Assembly: GCA_030077755.1 (NCBI GenBank)
Contig: JAQJZZ010000011.1
Span: 1 to 64,000, forward strand
Direction of reading: 5' to 3'
Source of the DNA: Filosporella fistucella
Lineage: Eukaryota; Ascomycota; Leotiomycetes; Helotiales
DNA length: 64,000 bases
This document shows, in pieces, positions 5,201 through 34,086 of this stretch. Position numbers and translations under genes: made by a program. The first letter of the stretch is position 1. The number at the start of each line of letters is the position of its first letter. Under the pieces are notes generated by a model. The model was not told the DNA's origin. It searched no databases and saw only the letters and a list, made by a program, of their open reading frames with translations.

Positions 5201-5409
5201 ATCTAATGCTTTAGGGATGGGTTAAGCCATGGCTCCTTAGCTATTTATGGTATTTTAAAATAATTTTAGGTAATATGTAGGCAGTAATAATGGGTTTAAA
5301 GTTACTTAGGGTTAACCCATTTACGCTATAATTAGGCATAGACCACACTTTAATTTCACTACTATAAAAAAACCCATTCATGGTGTGAATGATGATAACT
5401 AATGTTAGA

Positions 5410-6142
5410 TTATTCTTATTTAATTTATTCCGGATTCTTTAAATATACTTTTATTATGCATTAATATATTTTACCCCGGTTTTTATAATTATGGTTAAAT
5501 TTTATATTATATTTAGGAAATTATATTTAAATTATTAAAAATAATCTAATATACCTATTTTATTTATATAATTTTTAAATGGCGTTATATATATTATATA
5601 ATAAATGAAATATGCAAAAATCCCATTATATTTATTAATGCTTTTGGCATTTTGTAATAATTTAAATGAGCGCTAATCCGCGGCTTTATTTTTGAGGGAT
5701 ATTTATTACTTTAATACGTTTTTATAATTAATTGCTTTTAATATATTTAAATAACGCTCTAAAATTCGATTTTATACACGTAATAACCGCTTTAATTATA
5801 GCTCCTCTAAGTTAAGCATATAGGTATAATGGAATATTTAAATTAAATTATACTTAAATTAGCTTAATACCTTATTTTACTTAATATATTATAACCATGA
5901 ATTTATTTTAATAATAGGTACTTCTTTTAATATCCATAATCGCCGCTCTTAAGCCTCGCCCTTTTATTTTTTAATATCTTAAATAATTTAATTATTTATA
6001 TTATCCTAGTCGCTTTTATTATTCTTATTATTATTATTGCTATTATTTAAATTATTAGTTTCTTTTCCCATATTACATATTATAACCCAACGTATTTAAC
6101 GCTCTTACTCTTAGCCTTTGGCCTTATTAATAACCTAATATT
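5410..6142 (-). repeat. Duplicated helicase segment, copy B
   Basis: Second copy of 4078-4826, about 1.3 kb away and upstream of the helicase on its strand. It carries more TpA and fewer CpN than copy A, so it is the more heavily mutated of the two. It stops within a few bases of the first 28-bp GC-rich repeat at 6141. Confidence 0.85.
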
Positions 6143-15908: not shown

Positions 15909-18900
15909 CTATACCCAAGCCATGTCTGCTGCAAAATCATCCCATAATCCACTCCACTGACTATATGCAGTTGCCAAAGGCTGGTCCGTGATGAATAGTC
16001 CTCCGAATCCCCAGTCATTGATGATATGGTTCACTTCCTGTGCTTGTGTGGCAGCAGTCCCATCAAACCCATACACCAAGAACAAGCTCTTCGGTCGCTG
16101 GGATATTGTTATCGTATCTACTTGGTAGGACACTGTGGAGAATTCACTGTATGAAGTTTCAATGCCCACAACATAGTCGAAAATAGAGTATGCTTGCAGC
16201 ACACTACTAGTTTTGGGATTGTAAACAATAGGACCGTCGAAGTTGAGGCCCGCAAATACGGCCATTGCGCTCATGTAATCATTATTGAGAACACCTGATT
16301 GCTCGGATTCCTCGAAAAATATTCCATCCATGTGAATGTCCGCACTTCCGTAATTGCTCCAGTCTTTGCATGTAGTTATATCTGCTTTCACCTCATCGAT
16401 AGTTCGATTGGTGTAGCTTGTCGGGACATAACATAGCAGGATGGCGTTGGAATAATTCTGGAGGGCCGCGATGGCGGATATGTATGAACTGCTCGGATAA
16501 CTTCCTGCGACCCCTGGACCATTTGATGGGTTCACAATGACCATATGATTCAAACTTGGATAGTTTTGTAAGGAGTTATGAAGATTTTCCCAGGACCCAT
16601 TAGATGGCTCGATATACAACGGGACAACAAGAGTTCCTGTTGGCACATGGGACGAGCTAGTGCTAGTGGAAAAGGCGGTATTGGAGAATGTCGAGGCGGT
16701 AGAGGCGATACTGGCTGAAAATGACTCGCTGGCCGGTGAAGTCGAAGGGAGAGAGGACTTTGTGTTGTATACACTAGCTTCCACGGTCGAGGTTTGGGTT
16801 GCTGTTACTGGCTCGCGCGAAGATGTTGGAATCGTAAGGTAAAAGCTTGAATCTACGGCCGGGGTCTGGCTTGCTACTACTGAGTCGAGAGATGATGCTG
16901 AAATTATACTGTAATGACTTGACTTGCTCGGAGTTTGGCTAGCGACCGCGAGATCCGTGGAAGGGGTTCCAGGAGTGGAGACGGTTGGACTATGTGAGAA
17001 TGAAGATGAAATTGTGAAGTCGTTCAGCTCTGTATTCAATGTCTGACTTGCACTTGAATAATCGACGAGGGGGGAGTTCACGGCTGTTATTTCAGGTATC
17101 AGCTGGACTGTGGATGAACTTGTGGGGAGTTGATCCGGGATTGTAGTGGCATATTCACTGGTTGCAGTGGTCTGTGTTTGGCTAGATATGGTGTCTGTTG
17201 GCAACGATCCATCACTCGAGGGGCTAAGGGCTGAGAGGGAGCTTGCGAACCCCATTGATGGCTGCGTTGCCGTGATTTCCTCTATTTTAGAGGTCAAAGT
17301 CTGGCTTATGGATTGTAATTGGCTGGGAGTCGATGTATCTTCTGTGGGAATGGGATCGGAGATCATCCTTGTGACAGTGGATAGAACCATTGTGGTATAA
17401 TCACGTGGCTGGGTCGTCGAAAGTTCTCTCGCATACAGAGAATTGGTTGAAGAGTACTCTTCAAGTATCGTAAAGGAAGCTGAAGACTCCAAAGTCGGAT
17501 CTGCCGCAGTAGATTGGCTTGGTGGTTTGCTTGTCAATGTTGCAAATCCTGACTCTTTCGAGCTTGCTTGACTTGTCGATTCGGGAACCGTAATTGAAGT
17601 AAAAAGGCTCTCGATTGTATCTTGGCTAATGGTGACGCTCAAAGTCTCCGTAGGAAACCCTGCCTCTTTTGAAGTTACTTGGCTTGTCGATTCGGGACCC
17701 GTAGTTGAACTAAGGAAGCTTTTGATTGTGCCTTGACTGGTGGTGGCACTCAAGGTCTCCGTGGTAAATTCTGACTCGTTTGGACTTGCTTGGCTTGTCG
17801 ATTCGGGAATAGGAGTTGGGGTGAGGAGGCTCTCGGCTGCATCTTGGCTATTGGTGGCAGTCAGAGTTCCGGTAGGGAATGAGAGATCAGTGGATGAATA
17901 ACTATTCGATTGGGTAACAGACGCGGTTTTTAGCTCAGTTTGAGATATTGTTTCGCTCGTCAGATCTGAACTTGTGATCGGTAACTTGATATCTTCTACA
18001 GATGAAGTAATCGTTGTATACATAGTATCCTGGGCCGCTGAGGTGGGGCTGCTGTCCAATCCTGCCTGTGTAACTGTTGCATCTAAGGAAGATTGGCCTG
18101 CAGTGGATAGATCTCGGTAAGTACTTGTTGAGGTAGGTAGCTCCAAGAGAATATTGGGCACTATTCTGGAAATCATTGAGGTAATGCTATCGGCGGCTGA
18201 GAAAGATTGTGATATCGTGAAAATTCCCTCGGTAGAGCTTGCAGTTTCAACTTCACCAGTAGAGAATTGGCTGCTCGGCATTTCATTCACCGATGTTGTG
18301 ATCCCTGATGCTGAAATTGTTGCTGACAATGTGAAAGTGTCCTTGGTCGCACTTGCAATGTCAATTTCACTAGAGGGGAATTTGGTGGTCGATATCCCAT
18401 TCATCAAAGTTACGGTCTCTGAGGATGAAATTGTGTATACAGTGACCTCATCGACAATTGAAGAAATGCTGACACTGCTGGTGCTTGATTCTGCAGCTTG
18501 TGACACGGATGTTGACAAAGGCCGTGCGGTATTATCTTGTGTCGATATGGATTGGGAAGAAAATGCTTCATTTGGAGGGTTCATGGAGCTGGATTGTGCG
18601 GAAGGATAATCAGTAGTAGTGGTAGAAGTCTTTGACACAGTTGTACTGTACTTTGTTTGCACAAGAGTATTGGTGCTACCCGACTCCTGAATTACTATAG
18701 ATGCATAGTCGACAATCTTTGTAGAAGCTGGGGCCAAGGACGATATCCCTTCGTCCGCCAGCGTAGTGGAGTCTGCATGAATCATACTGAGGGAAAACTC
18801 AGACTGGATCATGGCATGACTCTCGGTTGGTTGGGGCATACTGGACGTAAGCGTAGTCCATATACCTAGCGATGAAAACTCCGTCTCAATGCTTGGTGCG

Positions 18901-21900
18901 GCTGAAGGTAGTGCCAAAAGAGACGATACACTTGCTTGAATGGGGTCAAGGGATGTCCGAGAAATAGAGGTCGATTCAAAGGCTTGCGTAGTGGAGAGGA
19001 CAGCTGTGTCATATGCGGTCGTCAAGAAGTTGGTAGACGAAGTTGGTATCGGGCTCTCTGCTTCCAAGCTCTTGAGTGTCTCCGGGTATTTATTAAGGGA
19101 AGAGGTACCAAGAAAGACGGCGGAGGGTTCTGCCGATGACAGAGCTGTCTCTGGAGTCGAAGCGATGCTGATGCCCGTTTTTTGGCTAAAGCCGCTTGCA
19201 GTTGTAGAGGAATGCTCCAAGCTTTTATACATGAACGTGGAAGGCTCTGTAAATGATGATTCCGTATCCAGTGTTGGATTAGAGCTGTACAATGTGTCCT
19301 GAGTGTTGGTAGAGGATGCCATTTCATGGGAAAAATCAAAAGATGATGAATGAAGAGCGGTGGAAATCGTTGTCTGAGGTCCAATGTCCAGGGTGGGGGA
19401 AATCTGGTATAAAATGCTAGAAGACGGAGCAGCGAATGCAAGCTGGGGGAGGATCGTCTTTGTGGTAATCTCGGATGACGCATATTTATCGGATGAAGAA
19501 AGTGAAGATGTGACAGCACTATCAGATAGAACAAATGGAAGAGAAGAAGAAACGTCTGTAGTAACCGCCGTTTGGGAAGCCAAAGAGAGTGAACCCGTGG
19601 TAGATAAGACAAGGGAGGATTCTGTCGAATCTCTGATCTCTGGGAAGATCACGCTTGAAGACAGGACGGTTGAATCAAGTATACTCGTGGACAAATACTG
19701 AGTTGCTGACGGCTCTTTGTAGTTGGTCTCTAAGCTCGATGCGCTTTCGTCTTGAGTGGTCATAGAGAAGAGAGAGTTGGAATTCGAGGGAAGAAGAGAA
19801 GACGATTCAGGAAGGTCTAACGCGTTGGTACTAGAAGTGGATAGAGATTGCAACACTACGCTGGTTGTTATCGTCATGACGTACTCGGATATTATCGGAG
19901 TGGTGGAAAGTAACTCCATAATCGTGCTTGGTTGCTCGGTTTCAGTACTCAATTGGCCAGTCAAGCTCTTTGAAATTGAACTAAAGTATGCTTCTGTACT
20001 GCTCCAAGTATCTGCGGTAGTCGGGAAGGGATTTGAGGAAGATGAAGGACTTTCAAATTCTAAGACCGAAGTGGGAGAGAGAACGTACAGTTCCGAAGTA
20101 GAAATTGGAATATTCTCCTGAGAAAAATCGCTGATCCCACCAGTGCTTCTTGCAGCAGATAAGGACCTCAAGAGAGAGGAGCTGAGAGTTTGATCACTTT
20201 CCAAGCTAGCACTTGATCGGGCACTTCGATCGGGAACAGGGCTGCTGGTGATTGCAAGGCTGCTGAAGGCCCCTTCATTTTCCGATGAAACCAACACGCT
20301 CGATTGGGCAGGCAGCACCACTGATGTCACAATTGAGAAACTGGGCTCCGTGGATGTTGAAGGGAAAAGTATCTGTTGAACGCTTGATATTTTCCCAAGA
20401 TCTGCAGGTGAAATGGTCGACTTTGCGTCCTGTAGTTGAGCCAGAGATGATGAAAGCTCCTTGATTGAAGACAGGGTGGTGAAGGCTGCCTCTTCAGTGT
20501 GTTCTTTGGTGGAAGGAGACTGTGTTGAAAAGTCTGCATCTGAATTATATGAAGAATGTACTGGCGTCACAATTTCGTCTTGAAGCAACGAAGTTGTGGA
20601 CATTTGAGGTGGAATATAGAACACGGTAGTACTGATTTCGATGCTGGTCGTGACAGAAGGTGTATTGAGTGAGCCTTGCACTGTGGTAACAGCATCCAAC
20701 GATGGTAAAATTGACTGAGATACAGAAGCTCCTTCTATTGTCACTAAACTGGAAAGTGACAAGGCACTTTGCAAAAATATTTGAGGTTGAACAGAGGCAC
20801 GGAGAATCGAAGTTGGCTCTGCTGTAAAAGTAGATGACTCAGGCGTGGTAGGGTATTGTGAAGAAACTGTAAACATGTCTTGTGATAACTCTCTACTGGT
20901 CATGAACGAACTTGCGGCTCCAGCCTCCAACTGTGTACTTTCTCTGGCTACGGAAGAGGAACTGGAAGGTGTTAGAGGATAAAGGGCATCCATAGAGTCA
21001 GAAGCCGCCAGATTCGAGGATAGAGTTGGAACTACATGTTCACTTGACCCAAATTCAAAAGCAGACATGCTAGAAGGGTTTTCGGTGATTGGAGTCGTGG
21101 CGGACAAGGTGTCGGAAATTGAAGTCCTAAAAGCTTGTGTTGGAGCAGTTGGTTCTGTATCTATGATGCTTGATGTCTCTTGGACATCTTTCGAGATTAT
21201 GACACTAGTCGAGAACTCAGGAAATGATGCTGAAAAGCCCTCCATTGTCATTTGCTCGTCTTGAATAGTGCTCATTGACGTCACTGCTGGCGATTCCGAC
21301 AATGTGGTAGCGACTGAGCTTTCGGTAGTCAATGTTGAAAGGATGACTGATGGCAGGGGCGTGTCAAAACTCGAAGTTGTATCTATGATATTCATGGAAG
21401 TGGTTTGACTTAAATCCGGTTCCAGCGACGATCGAACAGTGCTGAAGCTTGCTTCGGGGCCAAAATCAGATGTTCTCGCTGCCTGTAAGGTTATTGTAGG
21501 ACTTGAAATATCCACAGTGAATGCAGCGAGACTTTCGGTCGCTCTTGTCAAATCCTTCGATTCCAAAGTTGTGTCTTGAGCATTATTAGCCATGGGAGAA
21601 GCAAAAGCTTGATAAGTGATTGTCGCGGTTTCTACGATGTATGACGACTGTGGAGTCTTCATGAAGCCACTGCTTGTTGTAACATCTGCCATGGTGGAGG
21701 GAATTGCCGCGATATCGTTCGCTTCTGTTGAGGAAACTATGGAACTGAACGCAGTGTCGAGTTTGGACTCTGGTAGAATTGTAGAAGTGGGAACAGCTTC
21801 ATTTTCTTGTATCGATGAAGCTGTAATCTGCAGGCTACTGCTTGGTGCAAATTCTTGCGGCTTCGAAGAAGTGGCAGCACTCGCGCTTTCCGGTGTCAAA

Positions 21901-24900
21901 TAAGCCGAAACCAAAGAGCCACTGACCGTCGTAAGTTCTGGAATACTTGAGGAGGCGGTGGTCATCTCTTGTGTGGAAAATGCGAGAGATTGGAAGCCGG
22001 TGGTTTGTGCAGATTCTAGTATATTTGAAGATGCGGTTACCGTGCCAGTTTCTTGGGTGGAAGAAACAGGAAGCTGAAAGCTGCTGCTTAGTGCGAGTTC
22101 CAGTATGTTCGAAGAGGTGGTTATAGTTTCAATCTCTTGTGTGGAAGAAGCAGGAAGATGAGAGCCGCTACTTGGTGTAGATTCTGGTACATTTGAAGAA
22201 GCCGCTAAAATTACAGCCCCTTGTGTGGGAGAAGGCAAGTATGCGGGTTCCTCCATTTTGGAGGAAGTGACGACAGGTGCGTTATCTTCTAGCGAGGATG
22301 TGAAAGCTTGGATTGAGCCCGAAATAATCAACTCTTCCGAGTTTGAAGCTTGACCCGGTAGGCCTGAAGAAGCGGCTACACTCATGATTTGCAAAGTTGT
22401 GCTCGTCAGGGGTTGACCGGACAGCTGCATGCTCACGGACTCGAGACGCAACGTGGAGCTCGAAAGATAGGCAGTAGTTGTAGCGGAAGCAGTCAAGCTA
22501 TGTGTACTAGTTGAAAAGGCGCTTTCTACCATACCGTAGGATGATGTAATTTCACCAATGCTCTTGAGGTCTGATTGCAAGGCCGAAGACATTCCACCAA
22601 GGCGCGACGAGGGCTCAGCTAAGCTTGTAGGACTTTCGCTGGTAGAATAATATACCTGCGCACTGAGAGCAATAGTCGATATGCCTGCAAATGAGTCCAG
22701 GCCAGTAGTTCCAGTTGGACGAATTTGCGACTTCACAATAGAGGGCAACGCAGTAGGTTCCGGGAAGCTCGAGCTCAACAAAGTATCTGCTGCACTCATT
22801 ATGGGCTCATTTGACAGACTCTCAGCGGTGGGCAGTCCTGTTGGATATGAGTTTGGGTTGATGAATGAATCCGTTACAAGGTCTTGGGAAGTTGGGAGAG
22901 AAGGATAGGCAGTAGCCGAAACCGTGAGTGAGCTGATATCTTGCTGTGACTGGAGTGGAAAGGATGTGAAATCGGCAGCACCACTAAAGCTCAAGAAAGA
23001 AGAGGCAAAATCCGCCCCTTCAATGGTTATACTTGTTGGCACTGAGGAGATTTCGGACGATATTGTTGCAAATTCGGGATATGAGGAGCTCTCTTCAGGG
23101 GTAGGAGCACTTGTCACTTGGGCTGTCGACTGTAACTCGCTACCGAAGGCAGAAGATGATTGTGCCATACCTTGAAGACTCGTAGCAAAATCCAATATTG
23201 ATGTTATCATCTCGATACTAGACACAATGATCGTCATTTTTGACGGTGATGCAAGATATGCACTAGAAGAAGGCTGGGCAAATTCACTTGTAACGGACTC
23301 GAGAATTTTGGAAAGTGAGATTGGTGACATGGATTCGTTCGCTTTCGTGGAAGATATCATAGCAGGTTCAATCAAAGTTGAAGAAGTATCTGCCTCATAT
23401 TCGGACAATGAGACGACCTCTGAATGGGTAGGAACAGGGTCGCTGCTTGATGATATCAGCGTCTGTATACCCAAAAAGGACGACGTGACCAAAGTGGTTT
23501 GTATTGCTTGGAATGTGGATACTGCTGTTGTACCAGCCATTGATTCATAAATCGTCGGCTGAGTTGGTTCATTATAAATTGACGGGAGTGTTGTACTTTC
23601 TGGGTAATCAGACAATGATGTTGTACCAGCCATTGACACGGAGATTCTCGGCTGAGTGGGTTCATTATAACTTGAAAGGACTGTTGAGATCTCTTGGTAA
23701 GCTGGCGCCGTTGTTGCAGCGGCAAGAAAGTTGGGGATAATGAGCGACGTCTGGCTATTTTGACTTTCCAAAGATGTTGGTATATCCTCATGCGAACTGC
23801 CCATAACTATTGTGGGAGAAGCGAGGACTGATTGGGCATCGAAAGAAGTAGACGCCGCCTCATTGGAAGATTCAGGCATGCTAGTAGCCTGCGCCTTCAA
23901 GGAGAGAGAGTTGGCAGAGTCTGCGAAATTCGAAGTTCCAGCTGCCGTTGGGTTTGAGGAGGCCATGGAATCTGTAGTTTGAGGAAAAGCAGTGCTCGAC
24001 ACATCCGTCGAAGCGGAGAATGCAGATGAGGCCATGATGAGTTCTGTTGAGGTTGGGGCACCTGCGACTTCATATATAGAAGAACTATAGAGTATATCTT
24101 CAGGTAAGGTAGTTGAACTGGAGGCAAAATATGCTTGATGGCTGTAATCAGAAGTTCCTGAAGCTGGAGGGTTTGATTCGATCGGCAGCAAAGTTGTCTC
24201 GGCTTGTAGTGTGAAAGCTGGCTGAATACTATAAATAGATGTCACTCCAGCATTGGACTCTATGGGTAGTGGGAGTGTCTGGGTCCCTACTGCAGAGCTT
24301 GGATATCCACTTTCCATAGCTGGTGTTGGAGCATTATTCTCTGTTGATACCGTGAAAGCATTCGAACCTATAGCAGAAGCATGGTATTCGCTACTCATGC
24401 TCGAGGAGGTTGGCAGGGGTTGACCGCCCATACTTGAATTTATGTTTGTGGTGGGTTGCATAGATTCCAGAACACTCTGAGGACCGCTGGCATCGGCAAT
24501 GGAGCTACCCTGGGTATATAGCGACAACACTGGAGTGGGGTATGCCTCTGTAGAAGATGGCTCCACTGTATGTTGAACACTAAATACCTCTCCAGCCATG
24601 GTAAGCAAAACCTCTGTAGACGACGGCCCCACGGTATATTGAGCACTAGATTTCTCTTCTGCTTTATTAGACAAAACCTCTATAGGAGATGAGCTCACAG
24701 TAAATTGAGAACTAGATGTTTCTTCTGCCATGATAGACAAAGTCTCTATAGGAGATGGCCGCGCGGTATATTGAGCGCTAGATGTCTCTTCCGCCCTGGA
24801 AGTAACATCTCGTGGCGTTGGCGTTGTGGGAGAAGAAATCTCGGTACGAAAGGACGAAGCTGCGGCACTCATTTGCCCATCTGTGGATGGATTGAAGAAT

Positions 24901-27900
24901 ATCTCCGGGGAAATTGAAGGTGACATTTCGATGGGGACCAGGCTTGTTACCTGAACTGTTGAAGGTGGTGTATTTTGATTCAAGGAAGTTGAAGTCGGTG
25001 CGAGGCTTTCACTTGTAAGTGTCAATGTCACGCCCATAACATTGATTGTCATTGGCGACCCAGATGAGAAGGATTGCATAGCTGTCATCAAGGATTCGAC
25101 AGGAGAGAGAACGAAGCTAGTAGCTTCAGGAGATATCCCGAAAGACAAAAGCGAAGTATCACTCTGGCTCTCTGCAGCCGAAGTTTGAACGCCGGTTCTT
25201 GTGAACAGCGTGACCGGAGAAAACAAGTCTGACATGTCCGAGGACTTAAAGTTGGCGGTTGAAGATTCAGCTGCAGTCTGCACTCCCAAGGACGAAAATT
25301 CAATATCCGCTGTAGATATTGGCTGTACCGCCGTTGCACTTTGGGCTTCAAGATCTTGTAGAGATGACGTGCTGTCAAAGGCAGTGGTGAAAATTGACCG
25401 TGAAGGAGATGTGGCCTCCAATTGCGATGAAAAGCTAGGAACAAACTCAAGCTTCGAGGAGGCTGCATATCCAACAGTATAATCTATCACCGTTTCTAGT
25501 GCCGTAGTGTTTGTATTATCAGAAGTAGAGACTATTGACACGAGAATTTTGGTAGATATAGTGAGGAAGGTAGTTGGCAGCGGGTAAATTGTATTCACGC
25601 TTGTTGGAATGATTGTTTCCAAGTCACTCTGGAAGGACGATTGTATCGACTCTGAAGGTAGTTCGACAAGGCTAGATGCGTCTGATGACTCTATAGCCGA
25701 GGGGAGGCTTGGGTTTGAGCGTGAGATCTGCAGTGAGGTATCCACATATGCCAGAGACGAAAATTTTGGCATCGCATCTTGGGCATCCGTGCTGCTAAAG
25801 ACAGTATGTGCTGCGGGATTGGAAGGCAAGTAATTCACGACCGGCTGGATGACTGAAGGGAGAACCTTGACTGAATTTGATAAGACTGCAGTAGCGAGGA
25901 TAATTGAATTTTCATCCAGCGAGTCACTGGATACAGGGCTCGACTGTGGTGTGACCATGGTAGGTTCAAGGGATGACAAAGTCATCTGAGATTGTGGTAT
26001 GGCGAGCGTAAAGCTGGTTTCATTGGCTGCACCGACCGTCCGTGTGGAAATTTCAGCGGTAGGTATGGCGAAGGATGTTACCTCCAAGGAGTTGAAAGCC
26101 GAAATAGTTAGAGGAACGGAGACTGAATCGAATGCCAGGGCTTGCATTGATAAAGAGGATTGAGCCAACATTTCGCCCGGCACTTGCGAGCTTGATGGGG
26201 CTTGAATGGAGGACGATGGAGGCTGTGATGGGAAGATTCTGCCAGAACTGCTAGGGATTGCGGTTATCAATGGAACTTCGGTTGAAGTTGGGAAGATTTG
26301 GGCAGAAGTCTCCACGGCGCTGCTTGGAAACAACGTGGTAATTTCCAGGGTTGCATCTGATCCATCTGTGGAAAGGGAGTGATCGAAAGCTGAAGATGAT
26401 GAGGGCGGACTGGAGATATCCAAGCGGGCCGCCGAGCTGCTCCCTGGAGCTAAATTTACTTCCAGGGTACTGGAGGGATCTGAGTTGGCTGCGGAGGTGC
26501 TTTGAAGGATGACACCCACATCTTGGGACGTGGAAACGAACTGGAGCGGGCTCGAGGTTGTAGGACTAGCATTGGACTCTTGCGAGCTGGATGGCGATAC
26601 TAAAGACGATAATGGGGCGGAAGTGAGAATGGTTGATTGGCCAAATTCAGAACTGGTAGCGGTCGCCAAGCTGATACCAGAGACAAGAGAATTAGAAGGT
26701 TGAAGATCTGAGAACGATTCTGTTGGCAAACTTGCAACGTTGGAAACTTCGCTTGAGTCTTGAAGGCTCGATGTAACAGAGGATGGGGTTACACGGATTG
26801 CGAGACTTTCAGATTCAACTATGCTACTAAGCAAGGATGTGGTCGGAATTGTTGTCGTACGTCCAGCAAGAGAGCTGGACAATGTAGGTAATGACCCTCC
26901 TTGAGAATGGTCTGACTGCAACAGGCCCAAGATGCTGTTAAATCCTTCGAAGCTAGACGGTAGAGGCGTAGACAAAACAGTGCTGGCAGCTGACGAGACG
27001 AAAGAAGTGACTTTGCTATCTTCAAGACCAGAATGTATAGTCATCGAGGATACCAGATTGTCCCCGCTGGTGGATGACGAATCGTCTGAGAATGGTGTCT
27101 TTGTACTATAAGATATAAATATAGGGACAGAAAATGATTCTCCTGACTGTTTTGTAGTGGTAGCAGCGAGGGCTCCAGAACTAGCGGCTGGGTGGGACGA
27201 AAGCTCGGTGGGTATCAATGTTTGAGTTGAACCAAGATTAATTGCGGAAGAGAGCTGTATGCTGGCAATCACAGACTCTGAAATTGAGGACGATGGCTGG
27301 CTGGAAACTTGCTCTAAAACCGAAGCTGGCAGCGAGGAAGGCAAAAAGAGAGTGGTAGTCTCTCTGCTAATAAATACGGATTTTGGGGTCAGGGAAGAAG
27401 TTTCGCTGGAAACGATCTTAGAATAAAACTCTACCGAAGAAGATAATTGTGTAGTTGCAAGAGTCAACTTCGTTGTATCGCTCCCTGAAACTGGCTGGAG
27501 CAAAGATGGAGTAACGCTTCCAGATATTTTCGAACTTTCAGATGAGGCCGCGAGGGTAGACAGAGGCATTGTGGTTTGAGATATTTGTGAATTGATAATA
27601 GGGAGAGAAGAGGGCACAGATATTATCTGTTCGCTGGATGTCTGAGTCGGAGTGGATTGTGAGGAGGTGGTTTGACCTTGTTTCGAGGATGTTGCCAAGC
27701 TGGTGGAACCCAGACTCGGGGACATAACGCTGGAGGATAAAAATGTGGATGACAATACCTGGTTTACACTTTGGGCAACCAAAATCGACATCTCGCTGGA
27801 AGCTATCAACCTCACCGAGGATGAAGACAAGGACACTTTCAAAGAAGTAAGTTCAGTGGGTGTTGATTTGACAGAAGATCCAATCTGGCTCTGTAATTGG

Positions 27901-30900
27901 GCAGTGGGACTGGTAACCTGAGTGGAAGTAACAGTCGAAATTTTCAGGCTGGAATCAGACGAGGACAAAACTGAAAGGCGAGTTTGACTAGAGCTCTGAA
28001 TTGTACTGAGACTGATGGTCGGTGATAACGTCGATGTTGCAGGTCGAGTAGAACTCCGAATTGTGACTGTTGAAAGAATAGAAAGTGAGACAGAGGACGC
28101 AATCGATATTTTTGTGCTCGCTCCGAGGGTAGAACCATCAGTAGATGTTTCCAGCTGAGTTGAAGGCCCAATTGTGCTAGGTATCGAAGATTCCACACCA
28201 GAGGATTTGAGCTGGCTCAATGACCCTTGCGTGGCAAATGTGGAAGTAGATTTTATTTGTGTTGAACCTTGAAGAAGTCCTGCAGAGGATGAAAGTACCA
28301 CCGAAGATGTGACTCCGAGTGTGCTCTGCAACGTGTTGGCCACTGGAATCGAAGAAGCAGACGATGATTGAAACCTACTCGAACTCGGAACAGTATTGAC
28401 TAAAGAAGATACCGTAACCGATGATTTCATCAGACTCGAGCCCTCGAAAGAGCTAGGAGTGGTGGATTTGGAAGTGGCCGATGAGAGTTTGATTGGGGTT
28501 GAACTCTGCAGGAGGTTGGTAGAGGAAGCCAGCGTCACTGAAGATTTGATATCGACAGAGCTTTTGAAAGTCCCAATTATCGAGGAGGCGACCGATGATC
28601 GAACCTGTGTTAAGGTCTGGACAGAGCTAATAGAAGAAGACTTGAGCTGGCTCACACTCTGGATAGAGCTTGGTGTAACGAATGTAGAGGTGGCCATAGA
28701 AGATTTGACTTGAGTAGAGCTCTGGATCGTGACGGTAGAGGAAGAGGTGCTCGAAAATTTTAGCTGACTGGGGGTTTGCGAACCTGGGGCCGTAAAGGTG
28801 ATGGATGATTCCAGAGACTTGACTTGAGAGCTCTGGAAAGTGTTGGTGGAAGCGATTGTGGGCGTGGGCAGTTTAATTTGACTCGAGCTCTGAACCAAGG
28901 ATGTGAATGAAGTGGCTGACGTTGATGATATCCCTTGACTGCTTTGAAATGAAGAAAGTGAGGAAGATAACTTCATACTGGATTTCTGAAGAGAAGATGG
29001 GGTTGCAAGGGTCGACGATGAGGACACTGATAAAGAGAACACTCCGGCTGCTGATACTATAAGGTCAGATGATATAGATGATACCTTGCTACTGGAGAGA
29101 GAAACTTGACTGCTGCCCTTAACTGAAGCTGTAGGTGAGGATTGGGGGATAGAGCTAAGGCTATTACTGATAAGGCTGCTCGTTGAGACTGTGGTCAGGC
29201 TGCTGGCCTTAGGGGATTGCAACGTCGTGGAAGAAACCGTCGATAGACCCTTGGATGTTAGTATTTGTGACTGTGTAGCCGTGCTACTTATTTTATTAGA
29301 GCTTAATGCAATAGCCGAACTGGATGCTGGACCAGTCGTTGCAACTCGGAAGGTGGAGAGAGCACTGCTCCCTTTTGAGGAAGTCGAGACGCTTGATTGC
29401 ACTTGCGATACGGAGCCAAATGTGCTACTTGACTTCGTGATTGTTGGCACCAAAGAAGACGAAGAAAGTCCTTGCTGTTTTGTTGATGTTTGGGACTGAG
29501 AGATGGAGACACTGCTCGGCTTTGTTGAGACCAATGTGGAAATCGATGAAGGTGCCATGGATGCTGATTGTTGGATGACCGAACTGGACCCGGAGTTTCG
29601 ACTCGAGAGACCTGCGAGAGACGAGCTAAGACCCGGCGCTTTCGAAGACGACTGAAAAGATGAGGCAGGAGTGGGTCTGGAACTGGATGTTGGGACGAAA
29701 GGAGTTACCGAGCTTAAGCTAGAACTCGATGACTGAGACTTTGAGCTAGAGGAACTTCCACTAAATAGATTTGAAGAAGCAGGCGTAGGTGACGAAATCT
29801 GAGATGTTGCGCTGAGTTTCGATGAGCTTAATATGGATTGGGTAGCTTTCGAAGTTGGATTAGTAGATGGTGACGATGGAGGAGGCGAAAATGGGGCACT
29901 GTTAGTCCTAAAGTTAGATGAAGAGGTGAGGGACACGGATTCTGAAGACGAGAGCTTAATAGACGGACTCGGGGAGAGTGTGGCCTTCGAAGATTGAACT
30001 ACGGATGGGGTCGCACTACTCATCTTGGAGATAGACGACGAGATCAGAGACCCAGCTTTTGAAGATAATATACCCTGTGAAGAGCTCAAACCAGTGCTGC
30101 TAGCCTTTAAAGCTTGGGAGAATGATGAAGCTACACTGCTAGCTTTGAGGCTGAAGGATGATGCTACAGAGATAGATTTCGACGACGATAAATCCCGAGC
30201 GGAGTCACTAATCTTTGTAGATGTCCCTGAGCTGATTGCTGATGAAGTTCCCAATTTGGTAGTGGTCTGTATTTGCGAACTGGATCCCCCCAGAGAAGAC
30301 TTCAAGGAGTCTTGGAGTGAGCTAGCGGATTTGCTACTCGGTAAATTCATACTCGAGGAACTTTTAAGCAGAACTACGGATTTACTGCTTAGTACGTTCG
30401 TACTCGAGGTGGGACTAAAAGTTGTGGATGTAAAAAGTTTCGATGAAGGAGTAACAGTGGCGCTGCTTTTCAGCGACGTCGCGGATTGGGTAGAGCTGAC
30501 GAAGGCCGTTGTGGTGGGCTTGATAGAAGGACTTGACGGACCCGCAAAGCTTGAAGAAGAGATCCGGCTACTAGTTTTGAGAGAGGCAGCAGAACTGCTA
30601 CTCAAAATCGAGGTGAAAATGCTGGTAGATTTAAATCCTGACTTGGATGAAGTCACTCCAATGATGCTGCTAGTGGAGGATGAAAGTCCAAAGCTGGTCT
30701 TCTTTGACGAGACAGAGATTGCATTGGACACCACAGAGGGTATGGAGACAATACTGCTGCTCTGTTTTGAAGATATTGGCTTCGAAGACAACTGACTACT
30801 ACTCATGATCGGCCGTGTTGTAGAGAGTGCCGATAATGATATCAGAGAGGATACTGAATTAGATGTGCTCTGTTTCAAAGAGGAAAGGATCCTGGAAGAT

Positions 30901-32567
30901 GACTGGGTGCTACTCAAAGCGGGAACCGATGAGCTCGCCGTCGATAGTAATCTTGTTGATGAAGAGGCAACCACTGTGCTTTGCTTGGACGAAGAAAATT
31001 GTAGATTCGAGGATAATTTTGTACCACTGGAAATGCTACTCTGCTTCAATGCTGCTGAAGAGCCTATGGGAAGTGATTTGGTGGCTGATATAGTGACCAA
31101 AGTGCCGGGTATCGAGGAAGATTGCAGCTTAGAAGATAGCTGAGTGCTGCTCGGATTCCGCGCTGATGAAGAAGACGTCGATAGCAATCTAGAAGATGAT
31201 GTGACCGCCACCGTGCTTTGTTTTGAGGAGGAAGCTACCTTCGCGGAAATTTGAGAGCTACTCTGACTGAAGAACGATGAAGACACTCCAGAAAGAGATT
31301 TCGTGGAGGAGATAGGTACAGATCTGCTTTGCGTAGACAAAGACTGAGAAAACAATTTATTGCTACTCGAGGAAAGAATCGGCTGTGAAGTCGAGAGCGA
31401 TTTTGTCGAGGAGGAAGGGCTCAGCGTGGTTTGCTTCGAGGAAGGTAAAATTGAGGTACTTGATTTGGCAAGGGAAGAAGAAATGCTCAATAATGATTTC
31501 GCAGAGGAACTCGCCAAAATCGTTCCCTGCTTTGAGGAAGATAACAAGCTGGAACTTTTCAAGGTGCTAAGGGATATGGTGGGTGAGACGGTGGGTGATT
31601 TAGTTGATGAAAATAGGCCATTGGAGCTCAATTTGAGTGCCGATGATGTGGCAAACTTCGCGGATGACTGAGGGGTGATGCCAGTGCTACTTTTCTTGAG
31701 AGAAGAAACTGTATTTGAGCTGAATACTAATGCCGACGAAGAGGCGCTCTTCGAAGGAGGTAACACGGATGTGCCGACAGTGCTGCTTTGTTTGAGGGAT
31801 GAAATAGTAATAGAGCTTAATTTTCCCGCAGTTGAAGAGGCTAACTTCGAAGAAGCCAGCAAAGATGTGGGGATGCTGCTGCTTTGCTTCGAGGTAGATA
31901 CGGATGTACCGACATTGCTACTTTGCTTCGAGGATGAAATAGTAATTGAGCTCAACTTTATTCCGGTTGCAGAAGCAGTCTTCGAGGAGCTCAGCAGAGC
32001 TGTAGGGACACTGCTGCTTTGCTTTGAGGTGGGTACGACGCCGGAGCTTGATTTTAGGGCAGATGAAGAGCTCTTTGAATAAATCGACGACAATGTGACA
32101 ACATTGGTGCTTTGCTTTGAGGAGGCGACCGATTTTGATGATAGCCGTGTACTTGGCGAGTTCACGGGTGTTGATATGAATATAGATGATTTCACCGAGG
32201 TGCCCAAGCTGATGCTGCTTAACTTTGGCGTCGAAGCCAAGGAATCAGTGGTGAGCTTGGATGATGACGAAAGGACAGTACTTCGTCCCAAGGACGACGA
32301 AACAAGCTTAGCCGATGATTGGGAAACTATAGGTTTTGATGTTGATGAAATAACAGTAAGTTTGACGGAGGATGGCGTGGGAATTTGTACAGAACTAAGT
32401 CCAGTGCTCCTAATTGATGATACAACAGAGGAGAATGTACCAGTACTAGAACGAACTGAAGTTCCATTGGTACTGCTGCTGCGGCGAGATGAGACCGAGG
32501 ATGAGGTGGTTGCCGACGCGACTACCTCTAGCAAGGTCGTAAAAATGAGCCAACTGTTGAGCTTCAT
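15909..32567 (-). CDS. Giant Ser/Thr-rich secreted protein with C-terminal spherulin-4 domain
   Basis: A single uninterrupted frame of 16,659 bp, 5,552 aa from the first ATG (32567). Residues 1-18 or so (MKLNSWLIFTTLLEVVASA) are a signal peptide. Then come about 5,280 residues almost without Cys and dominated by Ser and Thr, as in mucin-like O-glycosylated stalks. The N-terminal third uses short SSSKQSS/SSKLSS motifs. Later parts are more diverse, with local duplications: a 37-residue unit (PESTSQ...TETLS...TSQ.TI.S) at 17560-17850, SSTQE units at 21950-22220, SSAQYTV..SSTEVL units at 24535-24800, and ..EPTQPRI/TI..SMAGTT at 23530-23690. The last 243 residues (15912-16640) are a spherulin-4 domain: VVPLYIEPSNGSW, VNPSNGPG, CYVPTSY, DGIFFEE, GIETSYSEF. 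Its relatives include Sph3 (GH135), which cuts galactosaminogalactan. There is no GPI signal after it, so the enzyme-like head is the C-terminus. It is probably a cell-wall or matrix protein. Confidence 0.93.
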   Translation of the reverse strand: MKLNSWLIFTTLLEVVASATTSSSVSSRRSSSTNGTSVRSSTGTFSSVVSSIRSTGLSSVQIPTPSSVKLTVISSTSKPIVSQSSAKLVSSSLGRSTVLSSSSKLTTDSLASTPKLSSISLGTSVKSSIFISTPVNSPSTRLSSKSVASSKQSTNVVTLSSIYSKSSSSALKSSSGVVPTSKQSSSVPTALLSSSKTASATGIKLSSITISSSKQSSNVGTSVSTSKQSSSIPTSLLASSKLASSTAGKLSSITISSLKQSSTVGTSVLPPSKSASSSALVFSSNTVSSLKKSSTGITPQSSAKFATSSALKLSSNGLFSSTKSPTVSPTISLSTLKSSSLLSSSKQGTILASSSAKSLLSISSSLAKSSTSILPSSKQTTLSPSSSTKSLSTSQPILSSSSNKLFSQSLSTQSRSVPISSTKSLSGVSSSFFSQSSSQISAKVASSSKQSTVAVTSSSRLLSTSSSSARNPSSTQLSSKLQSSSIPGTLVTISATKSLPIGSSAALKQSSISSGTKLSSNLQFSSSKQSTVVASSSTRLLSTASSSVPALSSTQSSSRILSSLKQSTSNSVSSLISLSALSTTRPIMSSSQLSSKPISSKQSSSIVSIPSVVSNAISVSSKKTSFGLSSSTSSIIGVTSSKSGFKSTSIFTSILSSSSAASLKTSSRISSSSFAGPSSPSIKPTTTAFVSSTQSATSLKSSATVTPSSKLFTSTTFSPTSSTNVLSSKSVVLLKSSSSMNLPSSKSASSLQDSLKSSLGGSSSQIQTTTKLGTSSAISSGTSTKISDSARDLSSSKSISVASSFSLKASSVASSFSQALKASSTGLSSSQGILSSKAGSLISSSISKMSSATPSVVQSSKATLSPSPSIKLSSSESVSLTSSSNFRTNSAPFSPPPSSPSTNPTSKATQSILSSSKLSATSQISSPTPASSNLFSGSSSSSKSQSSSSSLSSVTPFVPTSSSRPTPASSFQSSSKAPGLSSSLAGLSSRNSGSSSVIQQSASMAPSSISTLVSTKPSSVSISQSQTSTKQQGLSSSSLVPTITKSSSTFGSVSQVQSSVSTSSKGSSALSTFRVATTGPASSSAIALSSNKISSTATQSQILTSKGLSTVSSTTLQSPKASSLTTVSTSSLISNSLSSIPQSSPTASVKGSSQVSLSSSKVSSISSDLIVSAAGVFSLSVSSSSTLATPSSLQKSSMKLSSSLSSFQSSQGISSTSATSFTSLVQSSSQIKLPTPTIASTNTFQSSQVKSLESSITFTAPGSQTPSQLKFSSTSSSTVTIQSSTQVKSSMATSTFVTPSSIQSVSQLKSSSISSVQTLTQVRSSVASSIIGTFKSSVDIKSSVTLASSTNLLQSSTPIKLSSATSKSTTPSSFEGSSLMKSSVTVSSLVNTVPSSSRFQSSSASSIPVANTLQSTLGVTSSVVLSSSAGLLQGSTQIKSTSTFATQGSLSQLKSSGVESSIPSTIGPSTQLETSTDGSTLGASTKISIASSVSLSILSTVTIRSSTRPATSTLSPTISLSTIQSSSQTRLSVLSSSDSSLKISTVTSTQVTSPTAQLQSQIGSSVKSTPTELTSLKVSLSSSSVRLIASSEMSILVAQSVNQVLSSTFLSSSVMSPSLGSTSLATSSKQGQTTSSQSTPTQTSSEQIISVPSSLPIINSQISQTTMPLSTLAASSESSKISGSVTPSLLQPVSGSDTTKLTLATTQLSSSVEFYSKIVSSETSSLTPKSVFISRETTTLFLPSSLPASVLEQVSSQPSSSISESVIASIQLSSAINLGSTQTLIPTELSSHPAASSGALAATTTKQSGESFSVPIFISYSTKTPFSDDSSSTSGDNLVSSMTIHSGLEDSKVTSFVSSAASTVLSTPLPSSFEGFNSILGLLQSDHSQGGSLPTLSSSLAGRTTTIPTTSLLSSIVESESLAIRVTPSSVTSSLQDSSEVSNVASLPTESFSDLQPSNSLVSGISLATATSSEFGQSTILTSAPLSSLVSPSSSQESNASPTTSSPLQFVSTSQDVGVILQSTSAANSDPSSTLEVNLAPGSSSAARLDISSPPSSSSAFDHSLSTDGSDATLEITTLFPSSAVETSAQIFPTSTEVPLITAIPSSSGRIFPSQPPSSSIQAPSSSQVPGEMLAQSSLSMQALAFDSVSVPLTISAFNSLEVTSFAIPTAEISTRTVGAANETSFTLAIPQSQMTLSSLEPTMVTPQSSPVSSDSLDENSIILATAVLSNSVKVLPSVIQPVVNYLPSNPAAHTVFSSTDAQDAMPKFSSLAYVDTSLQISRSNPSLPSAIESSDASSLVELPSESIQSSFQSDLETIIPTSVNTIYPLPTTFLTISTKILVSIVSTSDNTNTTALETVIDYTVGYAASSKLEFVPSFSSQLEATSPSRSIFTTAFDSTSSLQDLEAQSATAVQPISTADIEFSSLGVQTAAESSTANFKSSDMSDLFSPVTLFTRTGVQTSAAESQSDTSLLSFGISPEATSFVLSPVESLMTAMQSFSSGSPMTINVMGVTLTLTSESLAPTSTSLNQNTPPSTVQVTSLVPIEMSPSISPEIFFNPSTDGQMSAAASSFRTEISSPTTPTPRDVTSRAEETSSAQYTARPSPIETLSIMAEETSSSQFTVSSSPIEVLSNKAEEKSSAQYTVGPSSTEVLLTMAGEVFSVQHTVEPSSTEAYPTPVLSLYTQGSSIADASGPQSVLESMQPTTNINSSMGGQPLPTSSSMSSEYHASAIGSNAFTVSTENNAPTPAMESGYPSSAVGTQTLPLPIESNAGVTSIYSIQPAFTLQAETTLLPIESNPPASGTSDYSHQAYFASSSTTLPEDILYSSSIYEVAGAPTSTELIMASSAFSASTDVSSTAFPQTTDSMASSNPTAAGTSNFADSANSLSLKAQATSMPESSNEAASTSFDAQSVLASPTIVMGSSHEDIPTSLESQNSQTSLIIPNFLAAATTAPAYQEISTVLSSYNEPTQPRISVSMAGTTSLSDYPESTTLPSIYNEPTQPTIYESMAGTTAVSTFQAIQTTLVTSSFLGIQTLISSSSDPVPTHSEVVSLSEYEADTSSTLIEPAMISSTKANESMSPISLSKILESVTSEFAQPSSSAYLASPSKMTIIVSSIEMITSILDFATSLQGMAQSSSAFGSELQSTAQVTSAPTPEESSSYPEFATISSEISSVPTSITIEGADFASSFLSFSGAADFTSFPLQSQQDISSLTVSATAYPSLPTSQDLVTDSFINPNSYPTGLPTAESLSNEPIMSAADTLLSSSFPEPTALPSIVKSQIRPTGTTGLDSFAGISTIALSAQVYYSTSESPTSLAEPSSRLGGMSSALQSDLKSIGEITSSYGMVESAFSTSTHSLTASATTTAYLSSSTLRLESVSMQLSGQPLTSTTLQIMSVAASSGLPGQASNSEELIISGSIQAFTSSLEDNAPVVTSSKMEEPAYLPSPTQGAVILAASSNVPESTPSSGSHLPASSTQEIETITTSSNILELALSSSFQLPVSSTQETGTVTASSNILESAQTTGFQSLAFSTQEMTTASSSIPELTTVSGSLVSAYLTPESASAATSSKPQEFAPSSSLQITASSIQENEAVPTSTILPESKLDTAFSSIVSSTEANDIAAIPSTMADVTTSSGFMKTPQSSYIVETATITYQAFASPMANNAQDTTLESKDLTRATESLAAFTVDISSPTITLQAARTSDFGPEASFSTVRSSLEPDLSQTTSMNIIDTTSSFDTPLPSVILSTLTTESSVATTLSESPAVTSMSTIQDEQMTMEGFSASFPEFSTSVIISKDVQETSSIIDTEPTAPTQAFRTSISDTLSATTPITENPSSMSAFEFGSSEHVVPTLSSNLAASDSMDALYPLTPSSSSSVARESTQLEAGAASSFMTSRELSQDMFTVSSQYPTTPESSTFTAEPTSILRASVQPQIFLQSALSLSSLVTIEGASVSQSILPSLDAVTTVQGSLNTPSVTTSIEISTTVFYIPPQMSTTSLLQDEIVTPVHSSYNSDADFSTQSPSTKEHTEEAAFTTLSSIKELSSSLAQLQDAKSTISPADLGKISSVQQILFPSTSTEPSFSIVTSVVLPAQSSVLVSSENEGAFSSLAITSSPVPDRSARSSASLESDQTLSSSLLRSLSAARSTGGISDFSQENIPISTSELYVLSPTSVLEFESPSSSSNPFPTTADTWSSTEAYFSSISKSLTGQLSTETEQPSTIMELLSTTPIISEYVMTITTSVVLQSLSTSSTNALDLPESSSLLPSNSNSLFSMTTQDESASSLETNYKEPSATQYLSTSILDSTVLSSSVIFPEIRDSTESSLVLSTTGSLSLASQTAVTTDVSSSLPFVLSDSAVTSSLSSSDKYASSEITTKTILPQLAFAAPSSSILYQISPTLDIGPQTTISTALHSSSFDFSHEMASSTNTQDTLYSSNPTLDTESSFTEPSTFMYKSLEHSSTTASGFSQKTGISIASTPETALSSAEPSAVFLGTSSLNKYPETLKSLEAESPIPTSSTNFLTTAYDTAVLSTTQAFESTSISRTSLDPIQASVSSLLALPSAAPSIETEFSSLGIWTTLTSSMPQPTESHAMIQSEFSLSMIHADSTTLADEGISSLAPASTKIVDYASIVIQESGSTNTLVQTKYSTTVSKTSTTTTDYPSAQSSSMNPPNEAFSSQSISTQDNTARPLSTSVSQAAESSTSSVSISSIVDEVTVYTISSSETVTLMNGISTTKFPSSEIDIASATKDTFTLSATISASGITTSVNEMPSSQFSTGEVETASSTEGIFTISQSFSAADSITSMISRIVPNILLELPTSTSTYRDLSTAGQSSLDATVTQAGLDSSPTSAAQDTMYTTITSSVEDIKLPITSSDLTSETISQTELKTASVTQSNSYSSTDLSFPTGTLTATNSQDAAESLLTPTPIPESTSQASPNESEFTTETLSATTSQGTIKSFLSSTTGPESTSQVTSKEAGFPTETLSVTISQDTIESLFTSITVPESTSQASSKESGFATLTSKPPSQSTAADPTLESSASFTILEEYSSTNSLYARELSTTQPRDYTTMVLSTVTRMISDPIPTEDTSTPSQLQSISQTLTSKIEEITATQPSMGFASSLSALSPSSDGSLPTDTISSQTQTTATSEYATTIPDQLPTSSSTVQLIPEITAVNSPLVDYSSASQTLNTELNDFTISSSFSHSPTVSTPGTPSTDLAVASQTPSKSSHYSIISASSLDSVVASQTPAVDSSFYLTIPTSSREPVTATQTSTVEASVYNTKSSLPSTSPASESFSASIASTASTFSNTAFSTSTSSSHVPTGTLVVPLYIEPSNGSWENLHNSLQNYPSLNHMVIVNPSNGPGVAGSYPSSSYISAIAALQNYSNAILLCYVPTSYTNRTIDEVKADITTCKDWSNYGSADIHMDGIFFEESEQSGVLNNDYMSAMAVFAGLNFDGPIVYNPKTSSVLQAYSIFDYVVGIETSYSEFSTVSYQVDTITISQRPKSLFLVYGFDGTAATQAQEVNHIINDWGFGGLFITDQPLATAYSQWSGLWDDFAADMAWV
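15912..16640 (-). other. Spherulin-4 / Sph3-like domain of the giant protein
   Basis: About residues 5310-5552 of the giant protein. Landmarks in order are the strand PLYIEPSNGSW, NPSNGPG, SYISAIAALQNY, the CYVPTSYTNRTIDEV helix start, GIFFEE (acid pair at 16308-16313), YNP, GIETSYSEF and GGLFITD near the end. In GH135 the motif is usually F-F-D-E; here the Asp is Glu, while the second acid and the later Glu of GIET.S remain. Catalysis is possible but unproven. Confidence 0.8.
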
Positions 32568-34086
32568 ATTAACTATGTAGCAACACGTTGCTCGAGCCCG
32601 AAAAGAACAGGCCAAGTCCTGACAATTACATGGATATGAGTAGATATCGGGGGTTTGTGATAGATATACAAGCAAAGAAGGATGGCGGATTATTGTCTTG
32701 AACAGCGAAGCCTAATATGAAACAGTAACTCAGTAAGGAGAAGTCCAAAATACTTCGGGCAAGAAGAAATCAAAGACACGTTCAACTAACAAAAGAAATT
32801 TGCTGGCTGTTGTACGGTGTTGAAAAGAAAGCGGAATTACAGTGGCATTGAGCTCGCATCTCGTATGATTTCTATGATTGTTCGATTTATAGTATAGCAG
32901 GATCAAGTCATTCATTCGGACTAAACGAAGAGAACTTTGAGAGTTTCGGTCAACTGTAGTTACCATGGGAGAAGTAACCACTTTGCAATGAGCATTTAGT
33001 ACAAGGTCAACAAATGAATAGACGGATCGAGTCTCCTAACTTTTGATGAGAAGGAAAATTTCCTCGTGCAGCTCGTATATAGGATGCGACCCAACATACA
33101 ATCGCACTATTGAAGCCTCCTGCGGCTCAACTGGCTTGAGGGTAAAATGTCTTTTCAGAGCGCCACATTGTGAACTCATTTCCACCATGAGGGCTTATCA
33201 GCCTCCGCATGTTTCTGAATCCAGACCATAGGCTATGAATGGCGATGGCTACGAGCTTTTCTAGGCAGAGCTGAAACATCTATCTCGAACTGTCCGATGT
33301 GGTCCGAAAAGCAAGAAACGTGGGGCACCTCAGACAGAAATTGACATACGAATGCAGCAATACACGCCACTTGGCTTAACAAATAAGATGGACGGAGATC
33401 TCCATTGCGAGAGATACATAAAGGAGCGATCTGGCTGAGATTAATTTGAGAACAATAATCATGGCAGCTGCAGGTTGATATCTTGATTAATATGGGTGAG
33501 GACTAGAGTTAATTGAGAAGAGGTTTGGAAGTCTCATCACATGACTAACGCCAAGTCCCGGTGGGTAGGGATCAGGTCTCCCACGGCTGCAATGCGCATC
33601 ACAGTGGACAATTCTTTGATTTCCAGCATCAAGCAATATCGGTAAATTGGATCCATCCACCTGTCAGGCACATACGGATGTGTACCTCACTGTTATGCTC
33701 AATGGCCCACACTTGTCTACTGCATAGGTACGATTTCGCTCTGGCTCTAAAATATACTAGATTCCTTAGAATCTAAATCTGGGACATTTGCCCGCCTCGG
33801 ACAAACTAAGGTAATCCATAGCCTGTAGCCAGGTTTCGAAAACCTGACATTCTATATTAATCGCGAATATCTTCTCTTTCCTCACGTTCCAAGTTTTTAT
33901 CATTCCGTTCTGTATAATCTTACATCTCTTCTTTGCGCAGTCATCGCCCCAGATTGCGTGAAACTTATTGGATCCTGCATTTATTTAGCTTGGCTCAACT
34001 GGTTCTCTCATCTTCCCGACGTCATCGCTTTTATGGTAGCCAAATTTCAATCACAATAATGTCTTCCTTCTGTCAACGCAGTCACA
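32568..34086. other. Divergent intergenic region upstream of the giant gene
   Basis: 1.5 kb between the giant gene start (-) and the methyltransferase-like gene (+). Short frames at 32730-32981, 33043-33231, 33561-33776 and 33933-34133 show no motif. The length is compatible with a long promoter for the giant gene. No repeat or RNA gene is recognised. Confidence 0.4.

Follow-up and report, generated by a model that had tools for sequence, protein, structure and literature searches.

The first 64 kb of contig C10 of Filosporella fistucella (GenBank JAQJZZ010000011.1; this whole 64,000-nucleotide stretch is called the window here), in an assembly of 45.8 Mb and 19 contigs that is fungal by content, carry a real and unusual gene. 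It is an uninterrupted reading frame of 5,552 residues, in which a signal-like N-terminus, a giant Ser/Thr stalk arranged as a charge diblock and a C-terminal head with the predicted fold of Sph3, altered at its catalytic site, follow one another. The anatomy of this gene is well supported; its function is not. Our favoured reading, held tentatively and with somewhat less than even confidence, is that it encodes a giant secreted glycoprotein whose head could be a galactosaminogalactan (GAG)-binding pseudo-enzyme or lectin on a matrix-forming stalk, the protein serving as a matrix adhesin or cross-linker. GAG aids filamentous fungi in sticking to surfaces and in biofilm formation, and to our knowledge little is known of the protein partners that bind it. 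A giant protein tipped with a GAG-hydrolase fold in which a key catalytic residue is altered would be a candidate adhesin dedicated to binding GAG, and it also represents an extreme case of the growth of a Ser/Thr stalk within one exon.

The head matched the PF12138 profile with 167.6 bits against a cut-off of 30.2 and is predicted to adopt the barrel fold of its family member Sph3 (GH135; PDB 5C5G/5D6T, from Aspergillus clavatus). A preliminary description of this DNA had placed a spherulin-4 head at the C-terminal end of a Ser/Thr stalk and proposed this profile as a check; both parts of that architecture were recovered, the stalk remaining Ser/Thr-rich up to residue 5250. Passages of PMC10485009 give Asp166, Glu167 and Glu222 as the putative catalytic residues of Sph3, and in a passage of PMC8546845 an Asp166-to-Ala variant serves as the inactive form. 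The acids are printed as Asp196/Glu222 in a passage of PMC12054363; Asp166, used in the other two papers, was adopted here, since it agrees with the chain numbering (chain index plus 32). At this place the head carries the sole Glu among the 85 aligned sequences with a residue there, although most of these rows belong to another subfamily that differs from the head at many other places, which makes the count less telling. The equivalents of Glu167 and Glu222 are kept, so that the head reads Glu-Glu-Glu. In addition, the Gly of the NPG motif, a mark of GH135 chosen by us from the alignment and not defined so by a paper, is shared by all but one of the 85 other sequences that cover this position (84 of 86 rows, the head included), and the head reads NPK. 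As Asp166, a defining residue, is replaced, we file the head in the PF12138 fold family and not as an active GH135 enzyme. Hence, of the earlier proposal of a tethered matrix-cutting enzyme or adhesin, the cutting half is weakened by the two substitutions and the adhesin half gains.

The stalk comprises ∼5,280 residues, ∼95% of the protein, and is a third to half Ser/Thr: in bins of 250 residues, Ser+Thr amounted to 45–50% as far as residue 1750 and to 33–41% from there to residue 5250. Beyond the earlier account, the stalk is a charge diblock. Block A, counted over residues 19–1735, contains 124 K/R against 20 D/E and no His (net +104), and block B contains 84 K/R against 334 D/E (net −250); the cumulative charge excursion reaches 151, whereas none of 2000 shuffles exceeded 55, their maximum. 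The turn is gradual, from about +22 per 250 residues at the start to +7 and +4 over residues 1251–1750 and −14 in the next bin. No Pfam family appeared at E <= 1 within the N-terminal 2,053 residues, which are Ser/Thr-rich and in which an undescribed domain is possible. Matches of protein pieces to Staph_opine_DH, Imm42 and Rtt106_N fell below the Pfam cut-offs and were taken as chance. The whole protein holds 10 N-glycosylation sequons. Its N-terminal sequence, MKLNSWLIFTTLLEVVASA, appeared signal-like when judged by eye, and ∼5,290 residues separate it from the head. At the other end no glycosylphosphatidylinositol (GPI) signal was seen, in agreement with the preliminary description: the C-terminus is the head itself, and its last 25 residues have a mean hydropathy of −0.15, a judgement from composition and not from a predictor. 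The most hydrophobic 19-residue window of the protein (1.75, at 2222) includes Asn and Lys.

Table 1. Features of the giant gene and of the contig end, in window coordinates
Feature	Position	Strand	Basis
Uninterrupted reading frame, 5,552 residues (signal-like start, Ser/Thr stalk with two charge blocks, Sph3-fold head at the C-terminus)	15909..32567	-	frame reading
Probable signal peptide, residues 1-19, A-S-A ahead of the likely cut	32511..32567	-	by eye
Stalk block A, residues 20-1735 (S 37%, T 11.5%)	27363..32510	-	composition count
Stalk block B, residues 1736-5300 (S 23%, T 14%)	16668..27362	-	composition count
PF12138 (Spherulin4) head, Sph3-like barrel, residues 5313-5547	15927..16631	-	profile and fold comparison
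Cys5379 to Cys5400, the protein's only two cysteines, in the head and both in P0002; possible disulphide	16368..16433	-	sequence comparison
Glu5419, at the place of Sph3 Asp166	16311..16313	-	alignment/structure comparison
Glu5420, equivalent of Glu167, kept	16308..16310	-	alignment/structure comparison
Lys5452, at the Gly of the NPG motif (Sph3 position 204)	16212..16214	-	alignment
Glu5470, equivalent of Glu222, kept	16158..16160	-	alignment/structure comparison
Telomeric CTAACC array, end of contig C10	1..98	+	sequence scan

PF12138 gave nine matches in the genome, corresponding to about eight genes, and only the window gene lies in a frame longer than 696 residues. Two loci of GAG type, called on epimerase, Sph3, GH114 and Agd3 genes, were found elsewhere in the assembly. 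One, on contig C11, contains epimerase, Sph3, GH114 and Agd3 genes (L005, L012, L013; 165–185 kb), and the other, on contig C9, contains an epimerase gene, two Sph3 genes and an Agd3 gene (L001, L002, L014, L015; 2.72–2.74 Mb), with a GH114 gene ∼80 kb away. Because of these two loci, the fungus probably makes and deacetylates GAG. Their presence also makes an ascomycete probable. The Sph3 genes of both loci bear the Asp. The two Sph3 genes of the C9 locus stand in tandem, and L006, L007 and L008 form a second subfamily of PF12138, whose long C-terminal extensions by eye resemble those of relatives with fibronectin type III domains.

On the minus strand, the gene runs from its first ATG at 32567 to a stop at 15909 (16,659 bp), and an upstream in-frame stop at 32712–32714 delimits a stop-to-stop frame of 5,600 aa. 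The 5,552 codons contain no stop, whereas across this stretch the two remaining frames of the coding strand hold 218 and 231, and the three of the opposite strand 398, 131 and 399; the single open frame of the preliminary description thus stands, with exact coordinates. The one-gene reading is argued from sequence, and the locus could instead be split by introns or into several transcripts, or be a pseudogene or an assembly artefact. We consider this very improbable, given the length of the open frame and the following observations. By a simple rule (GTRNGT, branch point, YAG) the gene contains no intron candidate, where 200 synonymous shuffles averaged 2.5, and the donor GTRWGT is absent where 6.3 ± 2.3 are expected, a zero that none of 1000 dinucleotide-preserving synonymous shuffles reached. 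Splicing was rejected as an explanation on the lack of candidates, with the caveat that other motifs are somewhat depleted too: GTRNGT occurs 4 times against 9.2 expected (35 of 1000 shuffles) and the control GTYWGT 7 times against 13.6 (22 of 1000). Since the control is low as well, the depletion of donors may be partly a general or context effect, and these counts speak less clearly for a single exon.

Assembly over the repeats, which had been named as a possible source of error, is of no concern, because the gene contains no N and its longest exact direct repeat is 20 bp. DNA self-comparison revealed 12 forward repeat pairs of 70–79% identity, covering 10.3% of the gene as self-similar DNA. 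The offset is a multiple of three in 11 of the 12, and over those 11, which overlap and do not represent independent events, mismatch rates by codon position were 0.204, 0.245 and 0.320, highest at the third. Between in-frame gapless copies dN/dS was 0.43, which, like the frame-keeping offsets, argues against a split, pseudogenic or artefactual locus. These repeat data lend no support to the earlier claim that the gene is fast-evolving. Moreover, the two stalk pieces searched against the genome, one of the 400 residues that lead up to the head and one of the first 500 (900 in all, on either side of a middle part of ∼4,400 residues), matched only themselves.

According to the favoured reading, the product of the transcribed gene would enter the secretory path by its signal-like peptide. 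From its composition, the Ser/Thr stalk is predicted to carry dense O-glycosylation and to adopt an extended form, perhaps more than a micrometre long, a length that rests on the usual spacing of mucins. With Asp166 changed to Glu and the NPG Gly to Lys, the head would most likely grip the fungus's own N-acetylgalactosamine-containing GAG without cutting it efficiently; catalytically inactive hydrolases of this kind can be lectins that still bind their polymer, as a passage of PMC8546845 states. GAG becomes polycationic on deacetylation (passage in PMC11356417), and the acidic block B might add an electrostatic grip on this deacetylated, cationic form, while the basic block A might grip anionic polymers of the wall or substrate. 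The whole protein could in this way work as a matrix adhesin or cross-linker, and the charge diblock suggests a way to retain a secreted protein without a GPI anchor in a charged matrix. A more specific arrangement, which we regard as rather unlikely, would be a bipolar matrix staple. Here a micrometre-scale polyampholyte would lie with its basic N-terminal third on anionic wall, DNA or plant polymers and its acidic two thirds along cationic deacetylated GAG, with the silenced Sph3 head as a lectin on acetylated GAG. If so, an enzyme that trims GAG would have become a protein that cross-links this very matrix.

Several observations weigh against a GAG-binding matrix adhesin. The putative signal peptide has a Glu within its hydrophobic stretch, and neither a GPI signal nor a clear membrane segment was seen that could hold the protein at the cell. 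Of the 12 open reading frames in the window with 250 aa or more, one of which is the gene itself, 10 others were scanned, and no GAG gene appeared among these. Glu is also an acid and could retain some activity, and the other two catalytic acids are unchanged. This last point leads to a view close to that of the preliminary description, in which the head has remained an active enzyme of GH135 type on a far-reaching stalk, trimming the fungus's own GAG or similar polymers of its neighbours. The fold and all but one of the three catalytic acids are kept, Glu can in principle stand in for Asp as an acid, and Asp-Glu and Glu are still present in the nearest relatives, P0002 (42% identical) and P0029, so that the lineage was probably once active. 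Yet the replaced residue is the very one that is mutated to Ala in the inactive form (PMC8546845, in the passage cited above), Glu occurs at its place in none of the 84 others aligned there, and the NPG motif has lost its Gly as well; we hold present activity to be rather unlikely.

The head might also be a degenerate passenger, the protein serving chiefly as a secreted coat of mucin type or as a slime polymer in which the stalk does the work through hydration, shielding or charge-driven gel formation. Such a role would suit a protein that is almost wholly stalk, with charge blocks far beyond chance order and an altered catalytic site in the head. However, the well-predicted Sph3 fold and the retention of both cysteines of the nearest relative suggest that the head is still kept, and we judge a mere passenger to be fairly improbable.

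The nearest relative of the head found, P0002 (a JGI metagenome protein of 276 aa, 42% identical over 239 residues), shares its two cysteines but lacks a stalk, and keeps the Asp and NPG. The plan of a Ser/Thr stalk with a C-terminal spherulin-4 head is not new. P0029, a Spherulation-specific family 4 protein of Penicillium odoratum (435 aa; sharing 31% identity with the head across 221 residues), is a short-stalked form, in which a Ser/Thr-rich stretch precedes a C-terminal spherulin-4 domain. It differs in its stalk of ∼150 residues (46–195), in keeping Asp-Glu and Glu and in having no signal peptide evident by eye. What is new in the window gene is a stalk ∼35-fold longer, the charge diblock and the altered site. 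A 60-residue stretch with at least 40% Ser+Thr occurs in 5 of 93 relatives; it stands directly before the domain in P0029 and in P0092 (metagenome, ∼31–105), and at the N-terminus in P0085. The search for the same architecture in other genomes, which had been suggested, thus yielded the short-stalked form and no giant: none of 533 candidates (∼3,070–9,780 residues, words from residues 5340–5588) reached E <= 0.001, and giant fungal proteins are possibly scarce in the database, which makes their absence weak evidence. The statement that known spherulin-4 proteins are small fits 92 relatives of 123–496 aa, with the reserve that the search took only candidates within set length limits. Among the matches listed in openly licensed literature no spherulin-4 domain on a giant stalk appeared, the searches being partly aimed elsewhere. 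P0092 (JGI, 318 aa) has an N-terminal hydrophobic segment, its stretch before the domain is Thr/Ser-rich and Asp-Asp replaces Asp-Glu; against prokaryotes it gave 100 pattern matches and no confirmed relative, which says nothing about the head itself. Another spherulin-4 protein, P0087 (JGI, 304 aa), has Gly at the place of Glu167.

Compared with known systems, the protein shares with Sph3 the fold family and differs in the two substitutions and in its ∼5,280-residue stalk, the Sph3 domain lying behind a transmembrane domain near the N-terminus (passage in PMC11356417). Likewise, neither the cluster location of GAG-cluster Sph3, judged on the neighbours scanned, nor its succession of N-terminal transmembrane and hydrolase domains is found here. 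With GPI-anchored fungal adhesins of the Als and Epa type the protein has in common a putatively secreted, Ser/Thr-rich low-complexity stalk (passage in PMC8654403), at 33–50% Ser+Thr per 250-residue bin to residue 5250. Those adhesins, however, have an N-terminal binding domain and a C-terminal GPI signal, in place of a C-terminal head. Many adhesin genes of C. glabrata are subtelomeric, according to the abstract of PMC6023349, and the window gene is alike in the subtelomeric position that the preliminary description had noted, its stop codon lying 15.8 kb from the telomeric array. Cfl1 of Cryptococcus neoformans, likewise an adhesin that is secreted, begins with a signal peptide and has its conserved domain at the C-terminus; this domain is the cysteine-rich SIGC, and the passage of PMC8654403 on it mentions no long stalk.

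The neighbours identified among the 10 scanned frames are PAF-acetylhydrolase-like, GAT-domain, FAD oxidoreductase, lipase and Zn-cluster regulator genes. Nearer the telomere, the window contains an AT-rich stretch at 4001–6000 (GC 0.26). No match was obtained with the motif of a universal rDNA primer, and the sole 5.8S match scored in the assembly, L009 on contig C9 (2686920–2687044; 64 bits), is a diverged 5.8S-like sequence and possibly a fragment of rDNA.
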